A stretch of 64,000 nt of DNA from Sialis fuliginosa (Eukaryota; Arthropoda; Insecta; Megaloptera; Sialidae): positions 16,368,001 to 16,432,000 of the forward strand of contig OY540812.1 of NCBI GenBank assembly GCA_961205875.1, given 5' to 3'. Position 1 is the first letter of the stretch, and every line of letters begins with the position of its first letter. The notes under the pieces are model-generated. The model saw nothing but the letters and a program-made list of their open reading frames with translations. It was not told the origin of the DNA and did not search any database. Made by a program: the position numbers and the translations under genes. Shown here piece after piece: positions 1,714 through 61,635 of this stretch.

Positions 1714-2250
1714 TTAAACAGTCTTGGATATAACCCCAGTAATGGCTATTTTTAAATTAATTGTACTGAATTAGAAATATTTGTTGATATTGTTTACTAC
1801 CATTTCTGAATATTAATTTATATACATTTAACTGTATTTCAGAGTGATTTGATGATAATCGGCCATTAGGTATCAAAATAGTGGACATTTAAACTAATTA
1901 TTAGTATAATTTATTAATTATTAATTAATTGTTTCAAATTTGACGATTCTTTATTTTATATCTTTTGTGTCGTAGTACTTATCATTTTGTAATCATTAGC
2001 AAGTGTCCATCACTGCGTGATCATTGCTGGTTTTACTTTATCCATTACTGGAGAAAAAACATAAACAAAATAAAAGGCTATAATTTAAAAAACAACTATA
2101 TTTACGGACTTTGGTAATTAAATTTATTAAATAAAGAATTACTTGTTTTATTAGTAACATGAGTTCATGAGAATTACAAAAAAGAAACCCGTCAATCACA
2201 AAAACACTAACCTTGTTCTTCTAGCGGCCATAAGTGGTGCCAGTACCTTA
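1714..2250. mobile_element. AGGTA..GGCACCAG-ended element, copy A
   Basis: A non-coding repeat whose right end reads GGTGCCAGTACCTTA. It is homologous, in inverted orientation, to 3331-4063: shared stretches include AGAAATATTTGTTGATATT, CCATTTCTGAATATTAAT and the GATTTGATGATAATCGGCC region. Part of its sequence (about 1970-2200) recurs at 56380-56620. The left end is decayed. Probably a TIR DNA transposon derivative. Confidence 0.55.
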
Positions 2251-13058: not shown

Positions 13059-15275
13059 ATATATGCAAAACAAATATTTGAATTTAATTAATTGTAATGT
13101 AATAATTACATCGAATAGAGATCAAAAACTGAATGATAATTGTACCATATACTGGTCAATGTGTCAACACGTATGCATTTTGCAAACAAAGGCAATATTT
13201 CCCCTGTTTTCACCTCACGTTAAATTTGTTTATTACGTATTGTCATTAAATGTTTTATGTTAATATATCCTCTTTCAAACGACCCTACTCACCATTATGC
13301 CCTTTCCCTGACAATCAGTTATTCCAGTACATTAGGTAGTTTTACGTCTGGACTGTTAAAATGTAGTGCAGTTTAACAGTATTTTTTAACTATAATACGT
13401 AAGCAGTAAGCAGAATAAGATTCCGATAAATTCGTATTTGTTCTATTTTTATAATTTATTTATTTATTTCAAGGTTTCAAGGATTACTAATTCTGACATA
13501 GATCTCATTTTGTGTGTTTGTTGCATAACAAAGTCAACTAGAATTATATTATCCTTGTTTTTTTTCCAAATCGATTTAAAATTTGATAATTTCTTAACCA
13601 CACATTTTTTCTATTAGTTTCTTCACAATTTAATATAGACTTTTTGGTTATCATTTTTGTGTATTATATTCATTGCAAATACATTTAGTTATAACAGTTA
13701 TAGTTATAATGAATAAAAAATGTTCAAAAATTAAAAATGTATCATATTATTCATGATTAAAATTTTACAATATTGACGTTTTCTTAGTATATACAGGTTT
13801 TTCTGGGAAATAAATAAAAAATCTAAAACCTACATGAATAATATTAACATTTAAAACATGACACTCGGTGGAATTAACTCATGTTGTGAAAATGATCTCT
13901 CCTATTGCCGACAATTCAGAAAATAAATTTATGTCGTTTTTACACAGCATGACTTGCATTTACTTTATAGTATGGTATTTCTATTTGTAACCATTGGACG
14001 CGTTGCAATCTTGGAGCTTACGGAGAGAAATAAATTACAGCATTTCGTAGACATCTCTACGTATTACATATTTAATATTCACACAAGTTGTAGGAAATTT
14101 TATTTGAGAATTTGAATAAAAAATGACTTGTTTTTTAAAATAGTTTTGCTGTAACTACTGTTCTTTAGTATCAAACATTAACTTTACAGGTGTAGTTTAT
14201 AGAATTTGTTTATTTCCGTCAAAAAATAAGTGAAAAATGACAGAAAGAGTTTTTGTATAGAATTTTTTTTGCACGCATTATGATTGAAAAGTCAATTTAA
14301 ATGAACGCACAAAATAATCGATTTTTTTATTAACAATTATTATTCCTCAAACTTTTACAAGCATTAAAAAAAAATATTGAAAATACCAATAAATATTAGA
14401 GAACCGACTCGTGCAAATCGACTAAAATACGTTAGGATTCATACACACTGACAACCAAAGAATCTCAAACAACTAGGAGAAAATACAAAAATAAAATAAA
14501 TAAAAAACAATCAAATACAAGTAGAAGAAGGGATACTATATGAAGTTGGAATGGCAGATTGAACGTAAGTTTATTAAAAAAAAAATATTCCACAAATTGT
14601 CTTAATAACGACACTTCGAAACTTCAAACGCGTTTTTCTCAAAACTACTTTTTCGATTGCTGTCGGCATTATAACTCGAATAGTTTTCAATATTCTTTAA
14701 AAACTTCAGAATACATTTGTCTATCGTTTGTCAAGTAATTTGTAATTTTTTTTTTCATAATGGTTTTATTAACAATTAAAACTCAAAATTTTGCACGAAA
14801 ATGTGAAACTTAAATTCAAATTGTCATAAAAATTGAACAAATTTTTTTAATTATAAAATGGCTTGACAGACGATAGCGGTAATTTTACTTTACACGAATC
14901 TTTTTGAATTTTTTAAATTCATCAATATTTCAGCGCATTTTTTCAACAGGACCTTCCAAAATGTTATTATATACATTTTTTTTTATAAAAATTATATTTT
15001 GTAAACTATTTTTCAATTATCAATAAATAACATACAATTTTTATTTGATTTAATTGTTAACTTTGTACACCCTAAAAATTAAAAAAAAAACACGTTCATT
15101 TTTAATGCGTTCAGGTAGATGTGACCCCTTGGAATATATTAAAAAGTTTCGTTCTTCTAGTTGTTTTGCTTACTTAAATTTTTTGTAAAGGTATAATATA
15201 TGTATGGCACCCTAGCAAAATGACAGTAAAACTTACAGCAAATACAACAACAAATCATATTGTAATTTGATTATC
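13059..15275. repeat. Intronic AT-rich tract with a diverged hAT-interior segment
   Basis: Around 14500-14660 the sequence (GGAATGGCAGATTGAA, TTTTTCTCAAAACTA) resembles the interior of the hAT element at 53592-54549 (GAATGGCAGATTAAA, GTTTTCTCAAAACTA), so it looks like an older relative. The rest is featureless to me. Confidence 0.4.
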
Positions 15276-15281
15276 ACATAC

Positions 15282-15681
15282 CCATAACATGTACAGCAAC
15301 AGCCGGAGGCATAACAAAGATACCGACTAACCAATCGGCTACTGCAAGGGACATGACAAAACAGTTCGTCACCGTCCTCAGCCTTCTCGTTGTAACAACC
15401 GCCAAGATCACGAGCGTGTTCCCAACGATCGTGACAATGATTAGTATGCAGAGTGCCGCAATTAGTACCATGTCCGGCCACTCCAGACTCCGTGATTCAG
15501 TTGGCGGAGGCGACGTGTCGATGTCGTCTTCAGGGGCCCCGAGTATCGATGTGTTGTTTGCGTTAGAATTACTATTGTCTAGAGACGTGGACATCGTCCC
15601 CGGGAGTAGGCTTGTGAAGATTATCGGTTCGTTGTAGTAGTCCATGGTGATGTTATGGTGTTGATGGGATTGGTGTCATTT
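15282..15681 (-). CDS. Biogenic-amine GPCR, first coding exon (N-terminus, TM1, TM2)
   Basis: First coding exon of a rhodopsin-family amine receptor; coding from the ATG at 15645 to 15282 (121 codons plus one base). Residues 1-56 form an acidic, Ser/Asn-rich extracellular tail with overlapping N-glycosylation sequons at N30 and N31. TM1 is about residues 58-83 with the conserved GN (N76). After a short basic loop ([10 protein letters not shown]), TM2 is about 93-116 with LAVAD, whose D104 is the family sodium-site aspartate. The start has a strong Kozak context (CACCATGG). The exon ends with a GTATGT donor in phase 1 and joins exactly in frame to the exon at 977-1205, restoring a Gly codon. 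An acceptor (TTATTCCAG) ending at 15682 opens the exon, leaving 36 nt of 5' UTR. By resemblance it is an octopamine/tyramine-class receptor (TyrR/TAR2-like or alpha2-adrenergic-like octopamine receptor); exact ligand unproven. Plasma membrane protein; partial in this window. Confidence 0.9.
15653..15679 (-). promoter_or_regulatory. Upstream ORF in the receptor 5' UTR
   Basis: An ATG three bases into the exon opens an eight-codon reading frame (MTPIPSTP) that stops at TAA, seven bases before the receptor ATG. The uORF start has a weaker context than the main start. Such short uORFs can lower main-frame translation or favour reinitiation; that is inference here. It exists in the mRNA only if the acceptor at 15682 is used. 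Confidence 0.55.
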
Positions 15682-15682
15682 C

Positions 15683-18440
15683 TGGAATAAAAATGGTTTT
15701 TAGTTATTTAAATATATATCTAAAAAAAGTTCTTATTGTTATTGTATGTATATAAGAGTGTCTCACATAATTATAACATTCAAGTATTTCTACTTAGATG
15801 TTGTTTTTTACCGGCTTACCCCACTTGTTTGATAAAAAATAATACATCATAATAATAGTACATAAGTACAAACAGTACCTATAACATATTTCTTATTTGT
15901 ATAATTCTGGATGAAATGTTTATAATTCAACTACATACCCCTTTGGGAAATACATGTTATAAAAAAGTAAAATATATCATTTTTAAGACTGAATAGAATG
16001 CTGAAAAATACGCTTTAAAATAATTTTGCCACATTGCAAATACATTTATGTAATATTTTATCTTTACAATAGGTACTAATCACTTTATTTTAAATTAAAA
16101 AAAACTTTCACATTAATGCTTTATACACATACATACTTATTTTAATTTCTACCAAAGAAATATCAGTTGCTAAAAAATACAATTTATCTATATCCGGTGG
16201 AACCGGATGCTGCAATAAAATGATATGCATCAATGTTTCATTGTAATACCAGACCAACGCACAAATGTTCCTAATATCAAATTGTTATATTCAATCGTTT
16301 ATGAGATCATTTTGCTAGTTTGACATACAGCAAATAGACACACAGACCGATTTGGTATGTTTGATCTGTACGACATTTTCTTAAAATTTTTTGCAAAAAT
16401 TATCGGTTTATAGATAAATATTAAAATTTGTATCCATTTCCGGTAAAACCAGAAATCAGATTATGTGTTTTTTTCACTGGGTCAATGCAAGTAAGAAAAA
16501 TACGCAATTAGTTTTTTTTTCATGCAGTCGGTTCCAAGAATTTTCTTTTTTATCACTGACGTGATGAAAATTAAAAACTTAATTAATTAAATAATCTAAG
16601 ATAATTAATCTAACAAAAAACATAGTTACTGTAAGGTTTAAACAGTATTATCAATCTTTTGATGATTTTAATACCTTGCAAAACTTTTAAAATTTAAAAT
16701 GATTGATTCCTTTATGGCGGAATCTTATCACAACTATGTCCGATATTATAATGAATTAGGTTGCAAAAAAATTCTACAAAGTATTTACAATGTGTTTGAC
16801 AGCTGTATCAATGTTATCTATGATTTTAGCAATTTAAGATGTTTTTTCTTTGTATAATAGCGTATACATAAATGTTTTGTAGCGTCTTTAATGAGTTTTA
16901 TTGTTTTGATAATAAACTGTTAACATCGTAAATTACATAAGTATACCTATATAATGTTAATATATTTCCCATCAAATTTTGAATGCATCTCTTGAGAGTG
17001 TAAGCTAAAGATACTCCAATAATGTAATCATTTTTAGCCATACCGGCGGTGACGCGATTTATTAGAAAAATATTTTATGTGTTAATTTTAGTAAGCATAA
17101 AAAAAAATTTAATTGATCATAATGTATGCAGATGAAAAATATATAATACATTTATAATGACTGATAAAATCAGAAATTACGGCTGTGAGTATCACTAAGT
17201 TAATACAATCAATCAGAAATCGATTAGGGCTGTCAGAACTCTTACAATGAGTATCTCTAGTGTAAGAGGGTTCAAGGATGGCGTTACTATTTGAACGCGA
17301 AAATGCATGTTCGACATATTACAATGCAAAAAAGACTTTTTTTAGATTTTACACAGATAAAATACAACAAACACAATTCGGTATCCTCATTGGTAAGCTT
17401 TTAACATACTTGTCAGCAAATTCTTTATATAATAGTTACATACATTATATATTATAATTGTACTGTGGAACTTACTATTAAAAAGTACAATATACGTCCA
17501 ACAGTTCGTATACATACAATTTATCAAATGTATTTTTGTTTGTTTAAAAAAATTATTATAACGCCTCTTAACTACCTACATACATACGTACATAGTTATT
17601 ACATTAATAAATAATTCGTAAAATACTACAAATAATCCATTACTGAATACAACGAACGCAAGCAAACATTACGTTCATGTCAACACAAATTCATTATTGT
17701 TTTTGTAAAAAGTCAACTTCAGCAATTCACAAAATTAAATTAGAACCCCTGTTTAATTAAACATAAATAAATCAAATTTCAAAAATTACGTTTGTTGAAA
17801 AACTGTATAGGTACGTATTTTTTATAAAATACAGTCAAGCGATTATAATATAATTGATTCCATTATTTGAAAAAGGTTAAAACGTCAATTACACATTTGT
17901 AATGTCATGATATTCAGATCATTTGAAGCGGGTGTAATGCTATTTATTTTAAGTTTGGGTCAGCGTTCTTAAATATAAGGAAATATTTATGAAATTGTAC
18001 GTATTTGAGATAAAACATTTTTGATTCAATATCATAATTTTCTCTTTATTTTTAAGTATTTTATATATTGTATATATTTATCAAGAAGAGGTGGGATAAA
18101 ATTATATTAAAATAAAGCGTTATTAAATCTTTATATTTATATTTTTTATTTATTATTTATATATATTTATAACACAGGATTGCGTATTTTTAACAATTAT
18201 ATAAACTATATATATTAATTTGCAGCTATAAATAACGTAAACCTGTATATTTAAAATATATTTTTATTAAGTTGAATCTGCCGTATAATCAGTGTAAAAT
18301 TTGTTTTATATTATATTAAAATCTTTACAAATGCAATCAAAACAGTCGTTAGAAAGGGAAAATTAGCTTCTTATATGTTATAATTTGTATCATTTATAAC
18401 TTCTATTACGAAATTTATAACGCAGATATCAAAATAACAA
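15683..18440. other. Receptor 5' intron or upstream sequence, nothing recognised
   Basis: The acceptor at 15682 means sequence immediately to the right is intron on the minus strand. I could not identify the matching 5' UTR exon or a promoter. The pair CCGGTGGAACCGG near 16195 and CCGGTAAAACCAG near 16441 hints at one more worn repeat. Confidence 0.5.
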
Positions 18441-18464
18441 ATGAATATTTGAAAACAAAAAACT

Positions 18465-18882
18465 ATCTTATTTTTTTCGAAAATAAATTTGACAATCGTA
18501 AAATAGAGTAAAAAACACATTCAAATATATTATAATCAACTTAGTGGCCCATAGGAAAAACTAAAGTGAGGGATTGTAACTCGAAAACTAAAAGTGATAT
18601 AAAAATTCTAAATACACCAATCAATATTACACAAAAAGTGCTTTAAGAAATCGCAAACAAAAAGTACCTGTCTACATTGACAAAAAAGTTATAGCCATTT
18701 AAAGAATTTTCAGATTTTTGGGTATATCGCCTCAACTATATACAAATATGAATATTTTTTGATGTAGTAGTAGGCCCCTTTCTTACAAATAATTAATCTC
18801 ATTTAACCGAATCTGTATCTCTTACCGTTTAGGAAACCATGCATTCTACGCTTATCTTGGACATTCTGTATAATGTTTTTTA
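18465..18882. repeat. GATGTCCAAGATAAG family, copy 2 (half-copy)
   Basis: Co-linear with 4960-5378: shared blocks AACTTAGTGGCCCATA, AACTAAAAGTGATA, AAACAAAAAGTACCT and ACCGAATCTGTATCTCTTAC, ending CTTATCTTGGACATTCTGTA. Only one arm of the foldback is present. Confidence 0.7.
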
Positions 18883-19980
18883 ATCATTCTACATATATAT
18901 ATACTAATACATTTCAATTGAATGGTATTTAATAAATAATGATGTTATGCGGCTAACTAGTGGTTATCAAATAGTTTCGGGTTAGTTTGTCAGAACATTT
19001 TCAACCAATTGTTGACATATGTACAATTACAGAGACAGAATTCCGATTTGCTGACGGTGTATGGTATATTGACAGTTCTATATTCTTTTTTACACAAATG
19101 ATACAACCGTACTAAAGTTTTAATTTAATGTTTTTAGTTTGAATAGTAGTAGAAGATATAGAAAACATTACATTTATGTACGAAAACATTACTATTATAT
19201 TATTATAGCAAATAAGTTACCAGTTTGTTCCTGAACTTAAGATTGTTGATGTTTTCTATTCTGTATGAATATTTTGTAGGCTTTTTGATTCTATACATCG
19301 TTTTATAGGAAGCAAATAGAATCAATTTTGATAACAAGATCTATGATTCTAGATTTCTAGAATATTCAGACTATTAAAACGACATAAATATCATATCGGA
19401 AAATAAAACACTGATAATTTTAGGAATACTGACCCTTTATTTGAGTTGGGTTCAACGACGAACAAATTTAAGTTCGCCCGGTTGTATACGATGGTGCTTC
19501 ACTGTGCTAATATAATTGAATTTGTTGATATCTATTATAACTGGTGTTTGGTACATATGTACAATAAGTGTGGTTACAGCACAAGTACAGATATTATTGT
19601 AATAGTGCTTGAGTTGGATGGGAATACACGAGGACTCTGTTCTCATTGTTAATATAAAAAACTAATATCATTCCTGTAATATGACTGTTAGATTAATTAA
19701 ATTAAATATACTCTAGTTTTACAAATCGTACTATGGTATTACACTTGCTTATAAAATTTTTTTGAGTTGAAAACCATTATTCCTATAGAATTTTGGGGTG
19801 CTGAATTAAGAACTAATATTTTTAAAAATCCATCACGTCAAGTTTTTGTGATATTCTTACTAAAAAGTGCAAAAATTATGATTTTTGTAATTTTTACAAA
19901 TTTATTACCAAGCAAACAATTTTTTTCTAAATTTTTTTTTACCGAGATATATTAGAAGTAGTATAGTCAAATTAGATTTT
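18883..19980. other. AT-rich spacer left of the giant inverted repeat
   Basis: No repeat ends, exon or protein similarity seen. Overlapping short frames on both strands near 19450-19650 have no recognisable domain. Confidence 0.5.
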
Positions 19981-22900
19981 GAGCGGAATTCTCTGGGAAC
20001 AGCAAAATTTTTATGCCATATTGTAGGGGAGACATTGTAGTTTCACCACCCAAAAGTCCCACGAGCTAAACCTTGTGCTAACTCGGGGAGCCCCATTCAA
20101 AGTTGGATTTTGTGCAAATATTTGTTCATTTTCCTAGTTCATAAAAATACAGATATCTCGAGAACAAAAGTAGATATCGAAAAAAATGTTGCTGTTTTAG
20201 AATTGCTATAAAATACCCAACAATATGACTAAATAATATTAGAACCTATACTCAAACGTTTAGGTGTCACGTTCATTTGTTTATCAAAAATCGCTGTAAT
20301 TTTATTGTTTTTTCAATTCCATACTTTTTCGTTACATTATTAAGTATGAAAAAAAAATAGTTTTTTACTTTTTGTAATTTTCATCTTATTCTACGTTTAA
20401 TTTCCTTTAAAAATCTGTCATGGATTTTGATCTAAAAAAATTGTGTGAATACGTAAATAAAATTTCAAAAAAGTATTATTTAGTTTGCAAATTAAATGAA
20501 TGTTAAATTAACTGTATACGGTTTTTCAAAAACATTAAATATTTCATTAACCCGTCATACTATCTGCAAAATTTTAGGCATTTTGGAATCGCTATGAAAT
20601 TTTAATAATATTATAGGTGCACAGAAAAAAATATTTAAACACTGTGAACATATATGGGGCGGTTTTTTAGGAAACTGCATAAAAATTACAGTCTATGAAT
20701 TCATACATGGCTGTGCTCCTTTAAATAATTCCTAGTACTATGATGTCTGTTACATCTATAGTGCCCATGCATATACGTTTATATAAAAAAAAATTCCGCG
20801 ATTAAACCATTCAAAAAAAAATTACAGTCATTTTAACTTGTGAACTGAATTTTATTTTTTCGTAATTTGGTATAATCAAGATATCTCCTAAACAAATGAA
20901 GATACATGCAAGTACCATCACATAAAAATACGTAAAATTTTATGTGCTACAACTTTTATGAAAAGTATTTTTTGTTATCTTTATTCTAAATGGTTAATAA
21001 ATCTACGCGAAAATTTATTTTTAGAGGGACCGACGAAAAATAAGCTAGTTTTGATTTTTTTCTGGCCCTAATGTGAAGAATTGATAAAAAATAAGTAACA
21101 CTAATTTTAGAGGATAATAATTTGCAAGCTCTCTGAAAATTAAATTTTGATAAGATTATATATAACAGAAATATTTAATTTTAAAGTGCTCAAAAAAATG
21201 ACATTTTACATCAAGATTGTTGTACAGAGTAAGCTATGGAAATTAACACTGTGCAGAGAAAAACATTGACGATGTTAAAAATTGGGAAAGATGTTACCAA
21301 ATATCTATAGTTTGTTATAATAAACAATTATCAGTAATACAATTTTTAATTCAACCCCTATATTGAAAAAACTACCCTTAGTGTATAATTCTCAACTTAT
21401 GTTCTCGATTTTCATGAAAACGGTACATCGCACGAAAAAAATGTATGGAACTAATTGTGTAGAGATTAAAATTTGCAATTGATAACAAGTAGCATATTAA
21501 TTGAGTTATTTGAAATTACGGCGTTATTCAAAGGTTTATAAACGAGGCCAAAAAACATATTAAATGTTGGTTATTTCTGAAGGGCACAGACATTTTTTTG
21601 CCAAACTTTGTAAATATAAACTACTTATACTATTATAGAGTCACACCAAAGTCCCAATCGATCAATGCCATAGAAAAAAAGTTATAGCCAGTTTAATTTT
21701 TAAAAAATTTATCAAAAGTGTGAATTTTGTAATATTGATATGCTGTTATAATCAAAATTTACGAAAATTTTTCATAGCAATATCAGTCTCTTAAAAATTC
21801 TGATATTTATTTGAAATTTCACAATAATGATGGCTGTAGTTTAGTTTCAATGCTCAGTAATTAACAATTGTGTATGTTAATTTATAGGGGTTTTACAGCT
21901 CTTCAAGTGCGCAAAAATGAAAAGTGTTAATTTTAAATTCCAAAACAAACATATTCAAAAATTGTTTACACCAAAATGAAGATAAAACTAGCACTTTTAC
22001 ATATTTCATAAAATTATTAGATCCCTTTAGTTTTTGAATGATAACATAATATCAATGTGATATTTAATCTACCCTATGACACCAACCCCTAAACTAAGAT
22101 TATGAGGAATATATGAAGTTGGTCCATAAAATTTCAAAAATCTTGATAAGGTCTTACGAACAAATATAGAGATTGTATATTTATCAATAAAATTTAAAAA
22201 AAATTGAGTAGATACCCCAAATCGTCAAAATTAAAAAAAATATTTTTGAATTCTAAACATTGATTTTGTCTATAAATATTACATTCGCTTTGTTTTAACT
22301 TGTATTGAACCTACTTTCATGGGTTAACATCTCCCATTAAATTTTTTAATTTTTTTATAGATAAGGAATAGTTGAACATATTTTGCATTCAATATTTTGT
22401 TAATTTAACGAATAAATCCATTTTTTATGTCTTCTTATTTAATTAATTTAGTTTCAATAAAAACGGTGTAGTGAATTGAAAGGTTAATAAATAGGTAGTT
22501 ATTAATATTATATTTTGCTTTTATTGATAAATATACAATCTCTATATTTGTTCGTAAGACCTTATCAAGATTTTTGAAATTTTATGGACCAACTTCATAT
22601 ATTCCTCATAATCTTAGTTTAGGGGTTGGTGTCATAGGGTAGATTAAATATCACATTGATATTATGTTATCATTCAAAAACTAAAGGGATCTAATAATTT
22701 TATGAAATATGTAAAAGTGCTAGTTTTATCTTCATTTTGGTGTAAACAATTTTTGAATATGTTTGTTTTGGAATTTAAAATTAACACTTTTCATTTTTGC
22801 GCACTTGAAGAGCTGTAAAACCCCTATAAATTAACATACACAATTGTTAATTACTGAGCATTGAAACTAAACTACAGCCATCATTATTGTGAAATTTCAA

Positions 22901-24730
22901 ATAAATATCAGAATTTTTAAGAGACTGATATTGCTATGAAAAATTTTCGTAAATTTTGATTATAACAGCATATCAATATTACAAAATTCACACTTTTGAT
23001 AAATTTTTTAAAAATTAAACTGGCTATAACTTTTTTTCTATGGCATTGATCGATTGGGACTTTGGTGTGACTCTATAATAGTATAAGTAGTTTATATTTA
23101 CAAAGTTTGGCAAAAAAATGTCTGTGCCCTTCAGAAATAACCAACATTTAATATGTTTTTTGGCCTCGTTTATAAACCTTTGAATAACGCCGTAATTTCA
23201 AATAACTCAATTAATATGCTACTTGTTATCAATTGCAAATTTTAATCTCTACACAATTAGTTCCATACATTTTTTTCGTGCGATGTACCGTTTTCATGAA
23301 AATCGAGAACATAAGTTGAGAATTATACACTAAGGGTAGTTTTTTCAATATAGGGGTTGAATTAAAAATTGTATTACTGATAATTGTTTATTATAACAAA
23401 CTATAGATATTTGGTAACATCTTTCCCAATTTTTAACATCGTCAATGTTTTTCTCTGCACAGTGTTAATTTCCATAGCTTACTCTGTACAACAATCTTGA
23501 TGTAAAATGTCATTTTTTTGAGCACTTTAAAATTAAATATTTCTGTTATATATAATCTTATCAAAATTTAATTTTCAGAGAGCTTGCAAATTATTATCCT
23601 CTAAAATTAGTGTTACTTATTTTTTATCAATTCTTCACATTAGGGCCAGAAAAAAATCAAAACTAGCTTATTTTTCGTCGGTCCCTCTAAAAATAAATTT
23701 TCGCGTAGATTTATTAACCATTTAGAATAAAGATAACAAAAAATACTTTTCATAAAAGTTGTAGCACATAAAATTTTACGTATTTTTATGTGATGGTACT
23801 TGCATGTATCTTCATTTGTTTAGGAGATATCTTGATTATACCAAATTACGAAAAAATAAAATTCAGTTCACAAGTTAAAATGACTGTAATTTTTTTTTGA
23901 ATGGTTTAATCGCGGAATTTTTTTTTATATAAACGTATATGCATGGGCACTATAGATGTAACAGACATCATAGTACTAGGAATTATTTAAAGGAGCACAG
24001 CCATGTATGAATTCATAGACTGTAATTTTTATGCAGTTTCCTAAAAAACCGCCCCATATATGTTCACAGTGTTTAAATATTTTTTTCTGTGCACCTATAA
24101 TATTATTAAAATTTCATAGCGATTCCAAAATGCCTAAAATTTTGCAGATAGTATGACGGGTTAATGAAATATTTAATGTTTTTGAAAAACCGTATACAGT
24201 TAATTTAACATTCATTTAATTTGCAAACTAAATAATACTTTTTTGAAATTTTATTTACGTATTCACACAATTTTTTTAGATCAAAATCCATGACAGATTT
24301 TTAAAGGAAATTAAACGTAGAATAAGATGAAAATTACAAAAAGTAAAAAACTATTTTTTTTTCATACTTAATAATGTAACGAAAAAGTATGGAATTGAAA
24401 AAACAATAAAATTACAGCGATTTTTGATAAACAAATGAACGTGACACCTAAACGTTTGAGTATAGGTTCTAATATTATTTAGTCATATTGTTGGGTATTT
24501 TATAGCAATTCTAAAACAGCAACATTTTTTTCGATATCTACTTTTGTTCTCGAGATATCTGTATTTTTATGAACTAGGAAAATGAACAAATATTTGCACA
24601 AAATCCAACTTTGAATGGGGCTCCCCGAGTTAGCACAAGGTTTAGCTCGTGGGACTTTTGGGTGGTGAAACTACAATGTCTCCCCTACAATATGGAATAA
24701 AAATTTTGCTGTTCCCAGAGAATTCCGCTC
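19981..24730. repeat. Giant inverted repeat, 2.2-kb arms, 326-bp spacer
   Basis: Left arm 19981-22192 and right arm 22519-24730 are reverse complements. Paired coordinates always sum to 44711, at the outer ends and at the inner ends (22151 with 22560), so there is no net length difference. In the segments compared by eye I found one mismatch (20015 versus 24696). The outermost bases are GAGCGGAATT / AATTCCGCTC, and similarity stops abruptly there. Flanks (AGATTTT left, GACGTGT right) show no target duplication. Neither arm encodes a recognisable protein. It could be a very young foldback transposon, an inverted duplication, or an assembly artefact. The unrelated flanks and the unique spacer argue mildly against a simple missed-adapter read. 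Confidence 0.95.
22193..22518. other. Unique spacer (loop) of the giant inverted repeat
   Basis: 326 bp of AT-rich single-copy sequence between the arms; no ORF, TIR or RNA motif recognised. It would be the loop if the structure were transcribed. Confidence 0.7.
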
Positions 24731-26080
24731 GACGTGTTTTTTGAGTTATTTTTACTATACTAAAGATATTGCTTCATTTGCGTGTAGTAAAGTACATTGT
24801 GTCTAACCTGCAATCTTATTTAAAATAATGTCATACTTTTACATATTTTCAAATTAATATATTTTATCGAACAAAACTACTTACTTTGTCATGTTAACCG
24901 TTACTTATCATACAATAACGTTAAAAATATTTAATAAAATTACTTCAAATATCTATATAACTACCCATCAAAAATTTCACAACCAAAACACATGACTACT
25001 CGTTGATTTCTGATATAATGTAGTGAGTTTTCTGTTTGAATTTTTTTCCTATTCTATTAAACTAAACTTTGTATTATCCCATAATAATGCCTGACATGTT
25101 CCATACTTTGTATATAGTTTTAATGGAATAAATTTATTATTATTATAATTTAAGACTAGACTCGTCACGTCTTGAATTTTTAACTGACAGTCTCGTCTTA
25201 GTACACGTGACGTGAGATTTAAATTAAATTATTTTTGTTTATTTATAATAAATAATATTTACATAATATTTTATAGTTATCAGCGAAACTAGAATCATTT
25301 TGAAATATTCGTGTCATGAAAATTTCAGCGCTATTGTATCGATCTGCTCTAATCAAAATTTAAGAGGCGAAAAGTTTTGTCTTGTACCTATGAAGCTCTA
25401 TAGGTATGAAAAACGTAACGATTCAATTATATATAAAATAACTAGTTGCTTATAGAATAGACCAAAATTGGATCTGTAATTGAAAAATGTAATATGAAGT
25501 TATATAAAGTAACATATAACAATGTTTTTTACTTCGTTCGTAATGTAACGAAAACAAATTCTAAATATAACAGAATGAAATGTGAGTGAGTTATCATATT
25601 AATATATTTTATTATAAATAATATACATAAAATGTACATATAAAAAATATTAACAATTGTATATAATATAAATATAAATATAATATAAAATAATTTACAA
25701 ATCTGTTTTTTTTCTATTTTAATATACGTAATTTGTAATTATAATGTAAATATAGCGTTTTAAAATTAATAATAATAATAAAAAATGCTTTTTAATATTT
25801 TCTTTCTTATAAATTCGTACCTGAATATTAATTTACATTAAATATTAATATATTGTTTCATGAAAATGTATTCTGTTTGTAAAGAAGTCCATGAATATAC
25901 ATAAACTTAATCATAAGTGACAAAATACATTCTTTTAAATGATGCATGTAAATATACATTTAATTTCGTGACTACAAAGAAAAAATAATAAAAGCTTCTT
26001 AAAAACAATTAATTATAAAATAAACATGAACTTCATCTGAATGTCACGCAAGTTATACTTATTATACTGAAATATATTTT
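24731..26080. other. AT-rich spacer, nothing recognised
   Basis: Highly AT-rich with AATATA-type simple sequence (25600-25800). No element ends or exons seen. Confidence 0.5.
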
Positions 26081-26743
26081 ACTGGCTGCAGGATCGTCTT
26101 TAACCTATTGAAGGCCCTGGGCACATTAGAATAATGGGGCCCCTATGACCTTGACAGAGCACTATTTTGTTAAAGAAAGTAGATAAGCAAGGTTCTAGAT
26201 TTATTTTTATTTCTTTACAGTCACATTAAATGAATAGATAATATAATATAGTCCACAAAAGTAACTCTTTTAGCATTCTCAGGTTAGTGTTTAAAAATCT
26301 ATGTTGATTGAAGTGGTACCCTTCTGATTTTCGGGCGAGAGTAGAGTAGCTTCGCGTATGCAAAAGATAATAAGCAAGTAGGTATTGTAGTCAGTCATTA
26401 ATGTCATTATCGTTTGATTTTTTTGAAATAAATATGTTTTTCGGTAATAAATATCGGTTATCGTTTGGTGATATGGGATCCCCTATCGATCGCGGGGCCC
26501 TGGGCACGTGCCCAGAGTGCCCAGTGGGAAAGAGGGGCCTGACTGGCTGTTACCTACGATTTCATCCGCGTGGAATTTGTATTTTTTTATATAATTTCAT
26601 ATAGGTAATTTCGGGATAGACAGTAGCCTATGTCCTTTCTCAGGGTGCAAGCTATCTTTCTACCAAATTTCATCAAGATGGTTTAACCGTGGAAAGGTTA
26701 CAGACAGATAGAGTTACTTTCGAATTTATAATATTAGTATGGA
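26081..26743 (-). mobile_element. Short Helitron derivative, split by a hAT MITE
   Basis: On the minus strand the element starts TCCATACTAATATTATAAAT at 26743, preceded by A, a well-known Helitron 5' end in animals. It continues through CTGTCTGTAACC and ACCAAATTTCAT-like blocks to a decayed 3' end with GGTAACAGCCAG (consensus ends CTAGT). Without the inserted hAT MITE it is about 200 bp. Helitron features: TC start, CTRRT-like end, A/T target. Confidence 0.65.
26089..26541. mobile_element. hAT MITE inserted in the Helitron derivative
   Basis: Starts CAGGATCGTC and ends GGGGCCTG, flanked by a perfect 8-bp duplication ACTGGCTG (26081-26088, 26542-26549). Removing it rejoins the Helitron end. 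AAGGCCCTGGGCAC at the left and GGGGCCCTGGGCACGTGCCC at the right are the GC-rich subterminal blocks typical of a large insect hAT MITE group. Confidence 0.85.
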
Positions 26744-28200
26744 TGAAAGATATAGTTTTACTTTATACCATAAGTAAACATTTGATATTGATGCAATTTT
26801 TTGTTAAAACTATATAAAAACTTTATAAAAAATCAACTACGTTATACATATCTCTAATTAATAGAATTTCTTAAAAGTCATTTTTGTCCGTTTCATGACA
26901 CTATTTGCATTGAAAAAGGACAGTGGGTATGATGAAACGGACTAGGGTACATAAGTTGTACTTAAAAAATATGTATAATTTAATTCAAACCTAACAAACA
27001 ATGAGATATATTTTGAGATCTATAATCATTTTTCGATCTAGTATTTGTATTATTAATAAATACTTAAGTACTTAATTAAAAAATGTTGCTTCATCAAGTC
27101 AAATTGTTTATTTAATTATAATTATTGCAAAATAAGTTCTATTTATAGCATTTTAAACATTTCAGCCAGTCAACATTATTATATTACAATCAACATTACT
27201 ATTTAAATAAACGTCCGTTTCAATGAATGGACATCTGTCCGATTCAATGCCTAATAAGTAACCTTTAAAATTATTTGACAAACTTCATCTACACAGTAAC
27301 TTACCATTAACGTTCGACTCAAATAAATGCAATATTACACAAAATATTAAAAATACAATAAGTGTAATATCTCACTTTTGGAATCTTTTTCAAAAAAGTA
27401 TTTTTTTAGTTTTTTTTACGACGAAAACTTATATTGTCAATACAAACATAGCATATGGAACTAAACAAATATCATTTTTATGGAGCTTAGTGATGCTAAT
27501 AACAAAATTTGAATTAATTCCTTCGGATTGTTTCGATGGAACAGACATTAATTGACATAGACAACAGTAATATATTTATAGATATTTATGATTTATCAAT
27601 TTAAAAGTTTTATTTACCTGATATGGAATTGTGTATCACTCATATTTACGTAATAACTTACAAACTCACATTTTATATACAATTTTTTCACATGAAACAT
27701 GATTTTTTATTAAAGAAAATATTTGTTTGCTCTTTAAAATGAGGTTATTTATTGTTTTTGCACCAGTTTTCCAAAAATATTATGTTAATACTACAAAAAT
27801 GCTGGATACATAATACATTATTTCTCAATAAGCTTTACAATAATTCCCTTTCAGTTGTTTTATTTTGTTTGAACTAATACAGTGGATATAAAATTTTATC
27901 GTTTAGATTATTGTGCTTTTAATGGATTAAAGGGATAATTAAAATTATCAGATATTAAATAAAAATCACTTACTTAACTAATATTATAATAACTTTATAT
28001 TTTATAACTTTATATTTATTTTTAGTATCTAACATATTCCATACCTGTACTAGGTGACTGTTTGAATAACTTTTTTTATTATTTATTATTATTATTATTA
28101 TATGTACTAGTTGAAGTTTTAAGAAAATCGTTATAATGAACCTAGATTTGTCTATTTTAAAACGTATGTTTAGGTAAAAAATCCGAAAATTTTAGAATAC
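26744..28200. other. AT-rich spacer, nothing recognised
   Basis: Short repeats of GTCCGTTTCA occur at 26887 and 27212 but no element ends or coding sequence were found. Confidence 0.5.
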
Positions 28201-28204
28201 ACTA

Positions 28205-28823
28205 CATGGGCTGAAAAGTCTTTGGCCTGACTGTTTCACCGCAAAGAAGAATTTTTTCATGCGATTTGTGACAATGGATGAAACATGGATCCATTACTAC
28301 ATACTGGAATCCAATCGGCAGTTAGCAGAATGGTTATTGCTTGATGAAAGCCGTCCGAAACGCCCAAAAACACAACAGTCATGGTAAAACAATCAACAAA
28401 GAATATTACTGTGCATTACTGAATCGATTGGATGATGAAATCAAGGCAAACGGCCGCAAATGGTGACGAAAAAAATACTGTTTCTCCAAGACAAAGCACC
28501 ATCTCACAAGGCTCACGTTACGACCGATAAATTGAAGGAATGGCGCTATGAATTGGTTCTGCACCCACTGTTTTCCCCTTTTTTCCGAAATTAAAAATGT
28601 GGCTCTCTGGAAAAAGATTTTACTCTAATGAAAAGGTTGAGTTAGAAACAAGCGCCTATTTTGAGGGACTACACGCGAACCACTATAAGGCCGGTATCGA
28701 AATGTTAGAGGATCGTTAGAACAAGTGCATTACTGTAGATAGAGATTATGTCAAAGAATAAGAGTTTTTTCATTAAAAAAATAGTTTTTTTTTATTGTTA
28801 GGCCAAACACTTTTCAGCACATG
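28205..28823 (+). pseudogene. Truncated mariner transposon
   Basis: Terminal inverted repeats CATGGGCTGAAAAGTCTTTG and CAAACACTTTTCAGCACATG are bounded by TA on both sides. Inside is the C-terminal ~60% of a mariner transposase: RFVTMDETWIHYY (first catalytic Asp), VLFLQDKAPSHKAHVTTDKL (second Asp region), then LSGKRFYSNEKVELETSAYF and HYKAGIEMLEDR near the C-terminus. The helix-turn-helix half is missing, frames shift between blocks, and the third catalytic Asp region (normally PDLAPSD) is lost. Inactive, but with both ends kept it could have been mobilised in trans. Confidence 0.88.
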
Positions 28824-30285
28824 TAGTTTGTAAATGTTTTCGTCTTATATTAATACCAAAATATCTAATGGTAATTAAAATCAAATTATATGTTAATCTG
28901 TAGGCTCTGTGCAATTAAATATTTTTAGGTTTATTATTTTATTTATTCATATACGATGTTTTACAAATAATACAACACATTTTTATGTTTTGAACTTTTT
29001 ATCTATCTACCTATTTGTTTGTTACGATCAAACTCGAAAACATCCGCCTATGCTTTAATGGAACTTTACTTGTTAGTTTACGTTAGATATTATTAGGTTA
29101 CTATATCAAAAGTTGATATGTTAAATTTAACACGTACCTACCTACAGAGAATTAGTGAATTACTGCCGAATTGATTTTTGTGGGATTTTCATTGCTACAC
29201 AGCGTCGAGGTAGTGATAAAATAAATATTGAGCGGTAGAGATTTGAATAGGGTAGCCAAATAGACGCTAGCGAAGCTGTGATATTAAACTAGTGGAAACT
29301 TCCTTAGTTAATACTAGTCAATAGTTTAGCAATACTATTAGATATGGGTAGATGATAATTTAATTGTTATTATAATAAAGAACTATTATACTAATGTAAT
29401 TACTATTTTCGACAATTTATTAATAAACTTATTGTCAACCACTGTCGTTGTTGAATTATGAATGTAATAAAATACATGTTATTTGCTATACGCAAGGAAA
29501 TGTATCGTGTATCATTATTACGTTAAAGCCACACCTTTGAACAATATAAATATATAGTATGCGCTAAAAGTTATACCTATGTATCTGTCGTGACATTTGT
29601 TTACATGATTTATTTGTTTTTTTCTTTAAAATTCAAAACGTGATAAGTAATAACAGAAAGAGAATAATGGTCCTTGGAGATATAAAAAAACATACAAGTC
29701 TATATCCTTCGGGATTTTACTTCATATTAAATATAAATTTTTAATACTTATTTGCTTTATTAAATTTAAAAAAACGGTAAGTAAAAAATATTTTATTAAC
29801 ATTATATGTATATTTTTTATCTAAAAGACGGTTGTCCTGTTCAGAAAACTTGATTACGTTTTTTCTTTCTTCTTATTATATTTTATTTTTATTTTTCATT
29901 TTATTTTTTTCTCCCTAAGCCTAAATTTTAATTCTAGACATAGACACGGGGGTACGAAGATGGATAGGATTTGCTGGATAGGATACAATTTCGTTATTTC
30001 AGCACTGTTTTTTAGTCGACCTGGTTTGTGAATTATGCATACTTTTGTAAAAAATCAGACATTTATTTTTAATTGGTGAAAAAAAATATCCGAATTAAAT
30101 TATTAATTAAAACAAACCAGCTATGTACCTAAAAGGCTTAGCTTCCGCTTCCTCAGTCGTGCACCCCTGACTCTTCCGCTTAAGACACCATGGAGCGGTA
30201 GGTGATCTAACCTTAGAGAACACAATAATATTTTATTTTAAGTAAGATGAACTCGACATCAGTAATTAACTTTTACTTTGAGATT
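28824..30285. other. AT-rich spacer, nothing recognised
   Basis: No repeat ends or exons seen. The GC-richer stretch near 30120-30210 has no open frame of note. Confidence 0.5.
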
Positions 30286-33640: not shown

Positions 33641-34470
33641 ACAGCTTGAGTCATATCAGGTAGAACAAACTTGAATAGTTGATCGAGAAAAATATTTTAA
33701 GAAAAAAAGGTCATATAAACATGTGTCCGGAAATTTTCCGTGAGGAAGCAACAGATTCCCAAAGATTTAGATTATAAATTATTGAAATAAGTTTTTATTT
33801 AATATTTTGAGAACCCGTTGTGACACAGTTATGAAATTTTATAATCGGTTTTTATTAAACACATATTAATACTAAACCGATTATAAAATGTGTATATCTG
33901 GACCTGAAACGGAAAGATCGAGTGAAAGTTTTGAAATCGGAGAACAATTTTTCTTTAATAAATGATTGCAAAGCTTCTCGTATCTTCGATAATAAAACAA
34001 ATCATTACAAAGTACAACGCATTTTATTCATCATTGAATAAAAATCACAATTGCCATGGAAAACTAAAATAATATGTTTGTTAGCCGAGACGTCAGCCAA
34101 AACTACAACAATCACTCGTGTGCAATATTATATTCAAATCAAGTGAGCTTTGGAAAAAAGAATGGTTGATGTTTAAAATTTTTATATTTATTAAATTCGT
34201 TGCTTATTTTTTTAATGTATAACAGCAATACCGGCTTTATGGAGGGAGGCTGGGCAACCATTCAGGGTGCTAGTTCAAAAAGGGCGGTGGGTGGCCACAT
34301 CGAGAAAAACTTAAATTCTAGTAGAATTTTTGTCTCTTTAGTTAACGATCACAAAGCTTCTAGTATCTTCGATATGACTAGGACGCAAAATAAATAATTT
34401 CGAATAAGTAAATGGAGAATATATCAGAACAATAAATATCGAAGGTATGAGAAGCTTTGTAATCGTTTAA
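33640..34470. mobile_element. Cluster of nested short inverted-repeat elements
   Basis: Three layers are visible. GAGTCATATCAGGTAGAACA (33648) and CATGTGTCCGGAAATTTTCC (33720) recur inverted at 36140-36240. A 15-bp hairpin TTTTATAATCGGTTT..AAACCGATTATAAAA lies at 33837-33890. AACGATCACAAAGCTTCTAG (34343) pairs with AGAAGCTTTGTAATCGTT (34451), and a direct relative is at 33962. Outer limits uncertain. Confidence 0.5.
34225..34320. repeat. hAT-like MITE fragment, CCGGCTTTAG family
   Basis: Left end CAATACCGGCTTTA followed by GGGAGGCTGGGCAACC and CAGGGTGCTAG matches the copies at 7496 and 11491. No right end was found, so it is truncated. Confidence 0.55.
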
Positions 34471-37460: not shown

Positions 37461-37479
37461 GTTTTCAATAATTAACTTT

Positions 37480-37670
37480 TTTTAAATAGAACAAAAATTA
37501 TTTTTACTTTTTGTTCTGATTCGTTTTTGTTAGGTAGGTAATTTAACTGTTGTTTGGTTTTTATGACAATAATAACTAATCGTGTTTGTACTTAATTCAA
37601 CTATATATTTTTTAAATCCTAAACAATAATTCCGTAGTCCACGCGAGCGAAGCCGCGCGGGCCCAGCTAG
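37480..37670 (+). mobile_element. Helitron-type 3' end
   Basis: Ends with GC-rich ACGCGAGCGAAGCCGCGCGG, able to form a small hairpin, followed by CCAGCTAG then T: the CTRRT terminus and A/T target typical of Helitrons. About 150 bp just upstream (TTTTTGTTCTGATTCGTTTTTG onwards) recurs in opposite orientation at 55030-55190, and its last block (CTAAACAATAATTCCGTAG) also at 58719-58750. The 5' end of this copy was not identified. Confidence 0.6.
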
Positions 37671-37845
37671 TATTATATAAAAGATAGTCTATATACTACG
37701 ATCGCCAAATTATATTTAATTTTTTTACTTAATTATTAACAAAGTAAAATCAATTAAAAACTAATTTTTTCGAAATCAAATCTTTTTTTATTGAAAAAAT
37801 ACGGACAGTTCACAACTAAACGAGCGCTAGGCCAATAACCTTTAC

Positions 37846-59022: not shown

Positions 59023-61635
59023 TATTTATTTTTATATAAGTTCGGACATTAGTGCACTATTGTCCGATCTTACTATATTAATCCAAAACCATATAAATAG
59101 TCGTCTATTGTTATCAGCTTTAGGGTCTTTAATTTTATATTTAGTCATAAAATTCATAATTACTTTTATTTTATAAAATACTAAAATGAGACAAATAATA
59201 AATGCATATTTAGATAATAATAAATGGTACCTACTTTGAAAGAAATAGTGTAAAATCATTTATAATTTTACACTGTCGTAAATCGTGGTATTCGTATGAA
59301 AAAATAATTTAAATAATCTATATGTTATTTTCAAGAGTATAATATTGTTAATAGATAAGACATATTTGATTTGATCGGGCTGATCAGTTTTATACTGGTG
59401 CTTCCGTTCAGGATCCCGACAATAACTTTTGTTGGTTAGGGTAATCTCTTTGGCAACCAATTTCCGATGAAGGTAGTTTTAGGTTAAAACATAACTCAAT
59501 CTCTGTGACGATAAACTGTTATTTCGGATTATAAATTGTTGGGATTTTGATACGAATCTGCTAGCTTAAGATTCGACCTTTATAAAGTAAGGAAATTGAA
59601 ACATTTAATGAAAGAAGTAAATTATTTTTGTGTTAGATTTTATTAATGACTTATAAAATAATAAATAAAAATGGTTTGTTTTTGGTAAACACTCGGTTTC
59701 GAAGGAACAATTTCTTAATATTTTGTTATAGTTTTCATTGGTATCTGAATGTAAATCTATATTTTTCTTATAAAGATCTAATTGTAAGCTAAGTATACGT
59801 GAAAAAATAAAATAACTTTTGCCTGGACATTTTTTAATCCGAACCGATTTTTAAAAAGTTTGTTTTTAAGTAAATAACTGCATGGAACGCAAATTCGGAT
59901 TCGATAAAGTTTTGCCATTTGATATTAATTAATTAAGAGAAAAAGCACAACATAAAGGATGTTGTAAACCACGTACAAGTGTAAAAAGAGTTAAAGTTTA
60001 TGTTCAATTTTTTTTTCAGATTTAAGGTAACAAATAGATAAACAAAGATACTTTAAATACTACTGAATTGTGAAAATCAAAAATAATTGTTTATAAACAA
60101 ATTTTGTATTTACATAAATTTTAGCACGTTTTCACATCTTCAAGAAATTATAAACTTACTATTAACATTTTTTTTTTTAATTATAACGACTTATTTTATA
60201 AACATCAGAAAAATAAATATTAATTTCTATAAATAAACAAAAAACTGAGTCATTTATAATATTTAAATAATGAATGTCCAATTAAAAGTTTAAATTTTAT
60301 CTTCTATTCTCTTATGTTGTTGTTTTTCATTAAATGAATTTATTAAAAAAAAATAAAACTAGGTAAAATTTGAAAAATAAACATTATATGAATTAAAAAA
60401 ATCTGTTATATCTAATCTCATGTATATTTGATACATCGGTTGTAAAAAATATTAAAAACTTATAAAAACGCTAGAGTTAGTTTGTTAAATTCAAGTAAAC
60501 ACGTTTGATATTTATTATATTATTTCTTTTTATGAATATTTCGATTATCTATACTTGAAATCTATTTCTAAAAATAAAAATAAATTCCAATAAAATAAAA
60601 GATAAAATAGTAAAAAAGTTACGTAAAAGTGAATAAAGGATATAATATATTATTGTAAACACATGGTAATATGTTATTTGGCATCGAACGAAAAAGCAAA
60701 TATTTTTTGTGTAGGGTAGTGTGGGGCGTTTGTCGAAGAATAGCTTCATTGATTAGTTTCTCGTACGTTTACGACATTCTAACGAAGTGTTTTGCATTGA
60801 ACGACGTACCTATTGTTATGATATAAAGTATGGTTGGAATATTTCATATATTATATTCTGTGTTGGGTAGCGTTAGTGTAGCGTAACAAAATAATGCTAT
60901 TTTTTGCGTTACGGCGAAGTACTTAACCATTGAGTAAAAAATAACAAGAGAAACAACGTATACGGGAGAGTTGAAACGCAGTAGATATATGAACCATGCA
61001 CTATTTAAGCCCCAGGAAGTGCTGGTATCTATTGAAAAAATTATTAATTATACATATGAAATATCTGGTTTTCGACTCTGCTAAATCGTCAGATTTTAAG
61101 CTCCGCCCTTCTGAAATGATTTACGAACGTCTTGTTTACATTATTTTAAGTCGGCTGATACGTGATACAAAGGCGGCAAGAACGTTGCAAGAAATATTCG
61201 TTACTTATTATCTTTTTCTTTTAAATAAAACAAAAAAAATATGTAATGTTAAAATTATTTGAGATAATTGCTGCTATCAATAATATAATAGATTTTTGCT
61301 TTAAAATAGGTTTTTATAAGTTGTAAGAAATTTAAATTTGTGACGCGATGTTACATTACTGATGATATAATTAGTAAAATTAGATTGATCGTTTTATTCA
61401 TTTCAAATTAATATAAAAATATATCAAAACTAAAAATATGGTTCTGCGGTTTTTTGTATCTACATTGCTTTAAACATAGAATATGGATTGTGGACCGATA
61501 CATATTACATATAATAATATATACAAAATAAGTTTTTTTATCTTCTTCAATGAAAATTAAAAATTCTTTTGTTTTTATTTCTCAAATATTATTTATTAAA
61601 ATTACTTTTGACCAAATATCATCGAAATTTTTATT
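59023..61635. other. AT-rich spacer, nothing recognised
   Basis: Open frames near 59032-59460 and 60996-61262 have low-complexity or unrecognised translations without splice or repeat context. Confidence 0.45.

Follow-up and report, generated by a model that had tools for sequence, protein, structure and literature searches.

That foldback elements exist, that terminal repeats are homogenised, and that repeats can grow through repair is already known (the papers cited here by PMC number are drawn on in part, and statements about them hold for those parts). Galileo, a P-superfamily element of Drosophila, has long terminal inverted repeats and many transposase-less copies, the two repeats of one copy are 98–100% identical, and repair from the other repeat is proposed by its authors as a route of repeat growth (PMC3573991). 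Tetris of Drosophila virilis is a foldback element with long inverted repeats, for which the sections of PMC4079207 drawn on here record no coding copy or autonomous partner, and Tm1 of root-knot nematodes is a foldback element whose inverted repeats are composite and of variable length (PMC3169594). On sex chromosomes, the large inverted arms of palindromes are kept more than 99% alike through gene conversion (PMC8981503). Here, we describe a palindrome that resembles each of these systems in the features listed. It is located in a 64,000-nucleotide stretch of the Sialis fuliginosa genome (contig OY540812.1, positions 16,368,001 to 16,432,000; "the window"). We conclude, with a probability of roughly 0.88, that it is a copy of a non-autonomous foldback DNA transposon, whose arms are homogenised and whose core is flipped between jumps.

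The first-pass annotation described two near-perfect inverted arms of about 2.2 kb with one mismatch in the parts compared, and the inverted repeat was confirmed. The left arm (19981–22192, plus strand; 2,212 bp, non-coding) and the right arm (22519–24730, minus strand) aligned over 2,212 positions with no gaps and a single mismatch, G at 20015 versus T (the complement of A at 24696), which corresponds to arm position 35. Inverted-repeat detection extended the pair to 19967–22204 and 22507–24744 (2,238 nt each, 99% identity, 302-nt spacer). The remaining 24 inverted pairs listed in 19000–26000 (the longest of 65) were each 33 nt or less, which excludes a chance origin of the arms. The arms are separated by a 326-bp loop (22193–22518, plus strand), whose core spans 22205–22506, and they form the interior of an element of 4,804 bp (19959–24762), whose true ends lie just outside, 22 bp beyond the arms on the A side and 32 bp on the B side. 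End A, TAGTATAGTCAAATTAGATTTT, occupies 19959–19980 (plus strand), while end B, at 24731–24762, reads TAGTATAGTAAAAATAACTCAAAAAACACGTC on the minus strand. The two ends are distinct, yet their outermost 9 bp are common, the shared terminus in aligned copies being TAGTATAGT. Once these true ends are recognised, the element is seen to be flanked by AAG at 19956–19958 and by AAG at 24763–24765, a target-site duplication where none had been obvious in the first-pass annotation. Coding arms were ruled out: in the stretch that runs from end A through the left arm to the end of the loop, the longest open frame was 62 codons, and none of the three open reading frames of at least 80 amino acids in 15000–30000 lies inside the element. 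The earlier statement that there is no transposase thus holds for the window copy, and the element is non-autonomous.

A genome search with one arm, as suggested in that annotation, revealed dispersed copies sharing the same ends. In the 392-Mb assembly (20 contigs), there were at least 47 arm matches, with the best 40 of 201 candidates scored. A search with a 302-base loop query returned 36 matches, 31 of them near-full, with 87–100% identity, on 12 of the 20 contigs; the loop, previously called unique, is not. End A was matched 106 times genome-wide at up to two mismatches, versus twice for a reversed control pattern (at least some of the two-mismatch matches are other sequences), and end B was matched 56 times at up to three mismatches, versus zero for the control. 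We retrieved 24 further regions and aligned them beside the window copy. Pieces at or near the palindrome centre were missing in L011, L012, L014, L018, L032, and L038, and four short derivatives of 171–578 bp (L033, L034, L035, and L036) had kept both ends and lost most of the interior. L010 is a truncated copy with one arm only; in L030, the right arm is interrupted by an insert of ~2.2 kb (L030:4951–7168), and the right end lies beyond the locus. The ends of L060 and L061 are cut off by other repeats, and L057 retains ~50 bp of the element. Fragments of relatives matched the arm at ~78–99% identity, among them older relatives of which some are 15–22% diverged. The foldback-type element guessed at earlier is therefore supported by dispersed copies with 2.2-kb arms.

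Target duplications were scored in 29 insertions and deletion derivatives, with L010 (one arm) and L030 (right end beyond the locus) excluded both here and from the arm tree below. Matching 3-bp repeats flanked 24 of them, three had a 4-bp repeat only, and two, L034 and L035, both short derivatives, had none. When left and right flanks were mispaired between elements, 3-bp repeats were found in 70 of 812 combinations (8.6%) and 4-bp repeats in 28 of 812 (3.4%). The duplicated words (AAG, TTA, CTA, TCA, AGT, ATT, and others) followed no fixed rule. The 3–4-bp target duplications imply that the elements arrived by insertion. Empty sites were sought by comparing elements located within other repeats with element-free relatives of those repeats. 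Clear empty sites were found for L022, whose relative at window positions 61266–61561 is 97% identical over the joined flanks, and for L027. For L019, the outcome was consistent with an empty site (relatives in L020 and L028), and L018 agreed within 1 bp; comparisons of L031 with window 33944–34248 and of L019 with window 1763–2031 gave no clear outcome, and weaker spanning matches were also present for L021, L027, and, once more, L019. A TA target duplication, suggested by a first reading of the ends, was ruled out, since TA falls inside the element when the empty sites are compared and the flanking 3-bp repeats are recognised. The window segment 61266–61561 is itself a dispersed repeat, and its L022-interrupted relative sits on another contig.

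These data bear on the proposal that the window palindrome is an isolated inverted segmental duplication, or else an artefact of assembly, for example a read folded on itself. While the almost perfect window arms would suit such an origin, and the extended inverted flank of L012 described below could be a misassembly, neither a duplication nor an artefact accounts for 31 near-full loop copies with fixed ends, for 3–4-bp duplications in 27 of 29 cases with empty sites for some copies, or for copies that hold their own arm variants and deletions. The occurrence of the same ends at unrelated sites, together with the duplications and empty sites, makes an assembly artefact very unlikely, and we assign the whole proposal a very low probability.

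Comparison of arms within and between elements indicated that the two arms of one element do not evolve independently. The arms of the same element differed by 0.05–0.85% in 20 of the 23 elements compared (L011 and L012 were omitted because of a deletion), while the median difference between arms of different elements was 3.2% (1,200 arm comparisons, with L011 and L012 included). In a tree of 50 arms from 25 elements, the two arms of one element were sisters in 15 elements. A single duplication without exchange predicts an A-side clade and a B-side clade. The approximately unbiased (AU) test rejected monophyly both for the 22 A-side arms (p-AU 3.7e-8) and for the 18 arms from one side of the loop (p-AU 3e-4). 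Thus, arms exchange sequence. Because of their one-arm deletion, L011 and L012 were omitted from the window scan, the AU test, and the count of private variants; L037 was also omitted from the AU test. Of the variants private to one of the 23 elements, 122 were shared by its two arms and 107 were confined to a single arm; 50 of the latter belonged to L023, L026, and L027. The window copy had nine private variants in both arms and one in a single arm. Arm similarity due to recent common descent only, in a young duplication whose arms never exchanged sequence, finds some favour in the clade of L019, L021, and L022, where elements resemble each other as closely as arms do. It requires the A-side clade that was rejected, however, and leaves the 122 single-element variants that sit in both arms to be accounted for; moreover, the arm sequence is not young, as the diverged older relatives match it. 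We consider this explanation very improbable. The earlier suggestion that the arms are being homogenised is thus borne out by the tree, the AU test, and the both-arm variants.

One copy, L012, may show arm-to-arm copying in the act, its right side overwritten from the left. L012 shares its deletion with L011 (99.95% identity over 4,261 bp). In L012:1634–6616, the palindrome extends beyond the arms into a second B end and then into an inverted copy of 335 bp from the left host flank; on the right, this copied flank is followed by end A and then by TCA, which matches the left side. Between the two sides, the outermost 1,909 bp (arm, 1,542 bp; end B, 32 bp; flank, 335 bp) are free of mismatches, and the nine side-to-side mismatches all lie in the inner part. 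Such a structure would be expected if the right side was repaired from the left arm, with synthesis running past the end of the element. In L037, B ends are present at both sides within an AGT duplication, and this copy can be read as a milder case of overrun than L012.

The arms could, alternatively, be remade at each transposition, with a hairpin intermediate being filled in from one arm so that the arms are identical at birth and drift later. This scheme accounts for the near-identical arms of most copies, and would suit a recent insertion in the window. It fits poorly with L019 (TAT duplication) and L021 (AAT), separate insertions at different sites, which have inherited matching A-versus-B alleles at positions 81 and 100 of the arm. 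Nor does it fit with the arm differences at positions 2221, 2222, and 2226, where the arm borders the loop, which are common to 14 elements. Arm differences were therefore carried through transposition, which argues for copying in place rather than at each jump. Moreover, L012 copied its own host flank, and so its copying took place after insertion. We regard remaking at transposition as unlikely, though less so than the two explanations dismissed above.

The orientation of the loop relative to ends A and B also varied among copies. Among 19 fetched copies, 12 had the loop oriented as in the window copy and 7 had it reversed; the 20th fetched copy, L037, has B at both sides and hence no orientation state. 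Upon addition of 11 copies scored from coordinates, 19 of 30 had the window orientation and 11 were flipped (of the 31 near-full copies, these 11 were oriented by coordinates alone, one of them, C2:14979248, by end B only). At least six orientation changes were required on the element tree among 18 labelled copies, L030 being absent from the tree used for this count. Two copies that are 0.41% apart, L016 and L017, have their loops in opposite orientation. A crossover further out in the arms would invert everything inside it, and arm differences are then expected to switch sides with the loop. This was observed: loop-edge arm markers (alignment positions 2221–2226) switched sides in flipped L009, L016, L024, and L026, and inner-arm differences of flipped L026, compared with unflipped L023 and L027, were on opposite sides in 38 of 42 cases, on the same side in three, and otherwise in one. 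Between unflipped L023 and L027, the sides of arm differences agreed in 15 of 15. Repeated core inversion within a foldback family was not found in our searches of the open-access literature.

A mechanism consistent with these observations can be proposed. A transposase acting in trans would recognise TAGTATAGT-type ends and move the element. Between jumps, inverted-repeat recombination between the arms would start from an extruded hairpin or a stalled fork, after which one arm would invade the other. A non-crossover outcome would copy one arm onto the other, while a crossover would invert the core; in yeast, half of inverted-repeat recombinants formed at stalled forks carry an inversion (PMC8748988). 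Copying would usually stop before the unlike ends A and B, and if it rarely passes them, the two-ended structure persists. An overrun could leave B at both ends, as in L037, or copy the flank, as in L012. We infer that the window copy was either recently inserted or recently converted.

Several observations weigh against the view of a homogenised, core-flipping transposon. Six of the nine both-arm window variants are also present in truncated L010, which lies outside the count, so that three remain, and private-variant counts in general depend on the copies sampled, with 11 near-full copies outside the sample. L019 and L021 differ by 0.23%, but their own arms are 0.41% apart, and the same two elements and L022 are as similar between elements as between arms. 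In L023, L026, and L027, the arms are 1.8–2.7% apart. L012 and the near-identical arms are known from the assembly alone, and a misassembly of L012 is possible. The element tree is weak at several of its forks, and flipped L025, L028, and L031 are uninformative at the loop-edge markers, where their arms do not differ. Finally, a transposase-bearing partner with these ends was not found among the places read. The pattern in L019, L021, and L022, together with the divergent arms of L023, L026, and L027, implies that homogenisation is intermittent rather than constant. Thus, the concerted evolution of the two arms of an element has interruptions.

The search for an autonomous partner consisted of reading inward from unpaired A and B ends, with no transposase search for Academ, Zator, KolobokP, or PHIS relatives; it yielded mostly truncated or older copies of the family and no partner. 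The unknown origin of the earlier statement has been narrowed down to a dispersed non-autonomous transposon family. When the terminal 10-mer was looked up in literature text, it occurred in eight papers, and none of the five that were listed had a transposon title. An A- or B-like end joined to an unlike interior was found in L039, L040, L041, L046, and L051; other matches to L040 stop short of its end-like 22-mer, and the likeness of L040 to the end may be due to chance. L039 is a member of another repeat family in this genome (L039:144–1880 and L065:106–2021), 1.7–1.9 kb long, with ends TAGTACAGGCAAATT ... CTGTACTA. This family is abundant, with 390 candidates at first look and 83–91% identity in the 39 other matches listed; the two copies read are ~85% identical. 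The 22-bp terminus of L039 is identical to end A at 20 of 22 positions, and L065, like the foldback family, has a 3-bp duplication (TCT); L039 lacks a matching duplication and, unlike the foldback family, shows no long arms. The A-like end and the 3-bp duplication in one of two copies suggest that several families may share one mobiliser.

Two further features of the window may be recorded. A repeat at 37462–37672 is 94% alike to L046:1104–1310, which in L046 is followed by a G+C-rich stretch and then CTAGT, an arrangement that we take to be reminiscent of Helitron 3' ends. An open reading frame at 15274–15645 (minus strand) matches Pfam 7tm_1 (rhodopsin-like receptor family) and is a probable exon, with the element situated 4.3 kb upstream.

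Instability is to be expected of long palindromes, yet the mobile one described here stays near-perfect at many sites. Since flanks and variants are specific to each insertion, conversions, flips, centre deletions, and overruns can be counted separately, which is hard with single sex-chromosome palindromes. L012 illustrates how foldback arms can extend outward into host sequence. New relative to what is already known of foldback elements are the 2.2-kb arms, the 3–4-bp duplication, the inversions counted among copies, and the copy with an overrun. A broader proposition, which we put forward tentatively and at somewhat less than even odds, is that the family might represent a foldback lineage outside Mutator and P, moved by an enzyme that duplicates 3–4 bp and comprising dozens of self-repairing, self-inverting mobile palindromes; a single genome would then hold many independent replicates of conversion between arms, inversion of the core, and overrun into the host flank. 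Candidates for its mobiliser would be AcademX, Zator, KolobokP, a Harbinger relative, or an undescribed transposase.

The family has the structure of a foldback (FB-like) element, with 2.2-kb arms, a 326-bp middle, dispersed same-ended copies, duplications, and no transposase, and its placement relative to known superfamilies rests on the target duplication. PIF/Harbinger elements proper duplicate 3 bp, either TTA or TAA; here, the duplications agree in length though not in letters (AAG, CTA, TCA, AGT, ATT, and others). MuDR and IS256 generate 4–10-bp duplications (PMC10045372), and membership in Mutator/MULE was rejected by duplication length, the only property tested (3 bp in 24 of 29 cases, 4 bp alone in 3 of 29). 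Duplications of 7–8 bp are expected for the P superfamily (PMC5199201), including Galileo-type elements, versus the 3–4 bp observed, and Tc1/mariner elements duplicate TA (PMC5199201), which here lies within the element. Both were rejected. AcademX makes 3- or 4-bp target duplications (PMC10045372), the length seen in this family, which is not specific. A 3-bp duplication is assigned to Academ in iMITEdb (PMC5199201), Zator duplicates 3 bp and Harbinger relatives (PHIS) 0–4 bp (PMC10045372), and KolobokP solo repeats have 3–5-bp duplications (PMC9587614). AcademX, Zator, KolobokP, and the PHIS relatives are thus leads rather than memberships, being compatible by length only.

The systems with which we began also differ from this family in defined ways. 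In Galileo, the longest repeat is 1,260 bp and duplications are 7 bp (PMC3573991), versus 2.2 kb and 3–4 bp here, and the cited sections on Galileo do not mention repeated inversion of the core. Tetris (PMC4079207) and Tm1 (PMC3169594), which have been placed in or near Mutator, have 8–10-bp duplications, and Tm1 has transposase-bearing members (PMC3169594). The 3–4-bp duplications thus add a foldback family to those compared, in which, as far as the cited sections go, duplications are 7–10 bp. Sex-chromosome palindromes are large chromosomal structures, the mouse ones being more than 10 kb long and gene-bearing (PMC5997626). The copies described here are small and mobile, and the process of arm conversion is therefore repeated many times in one genome.

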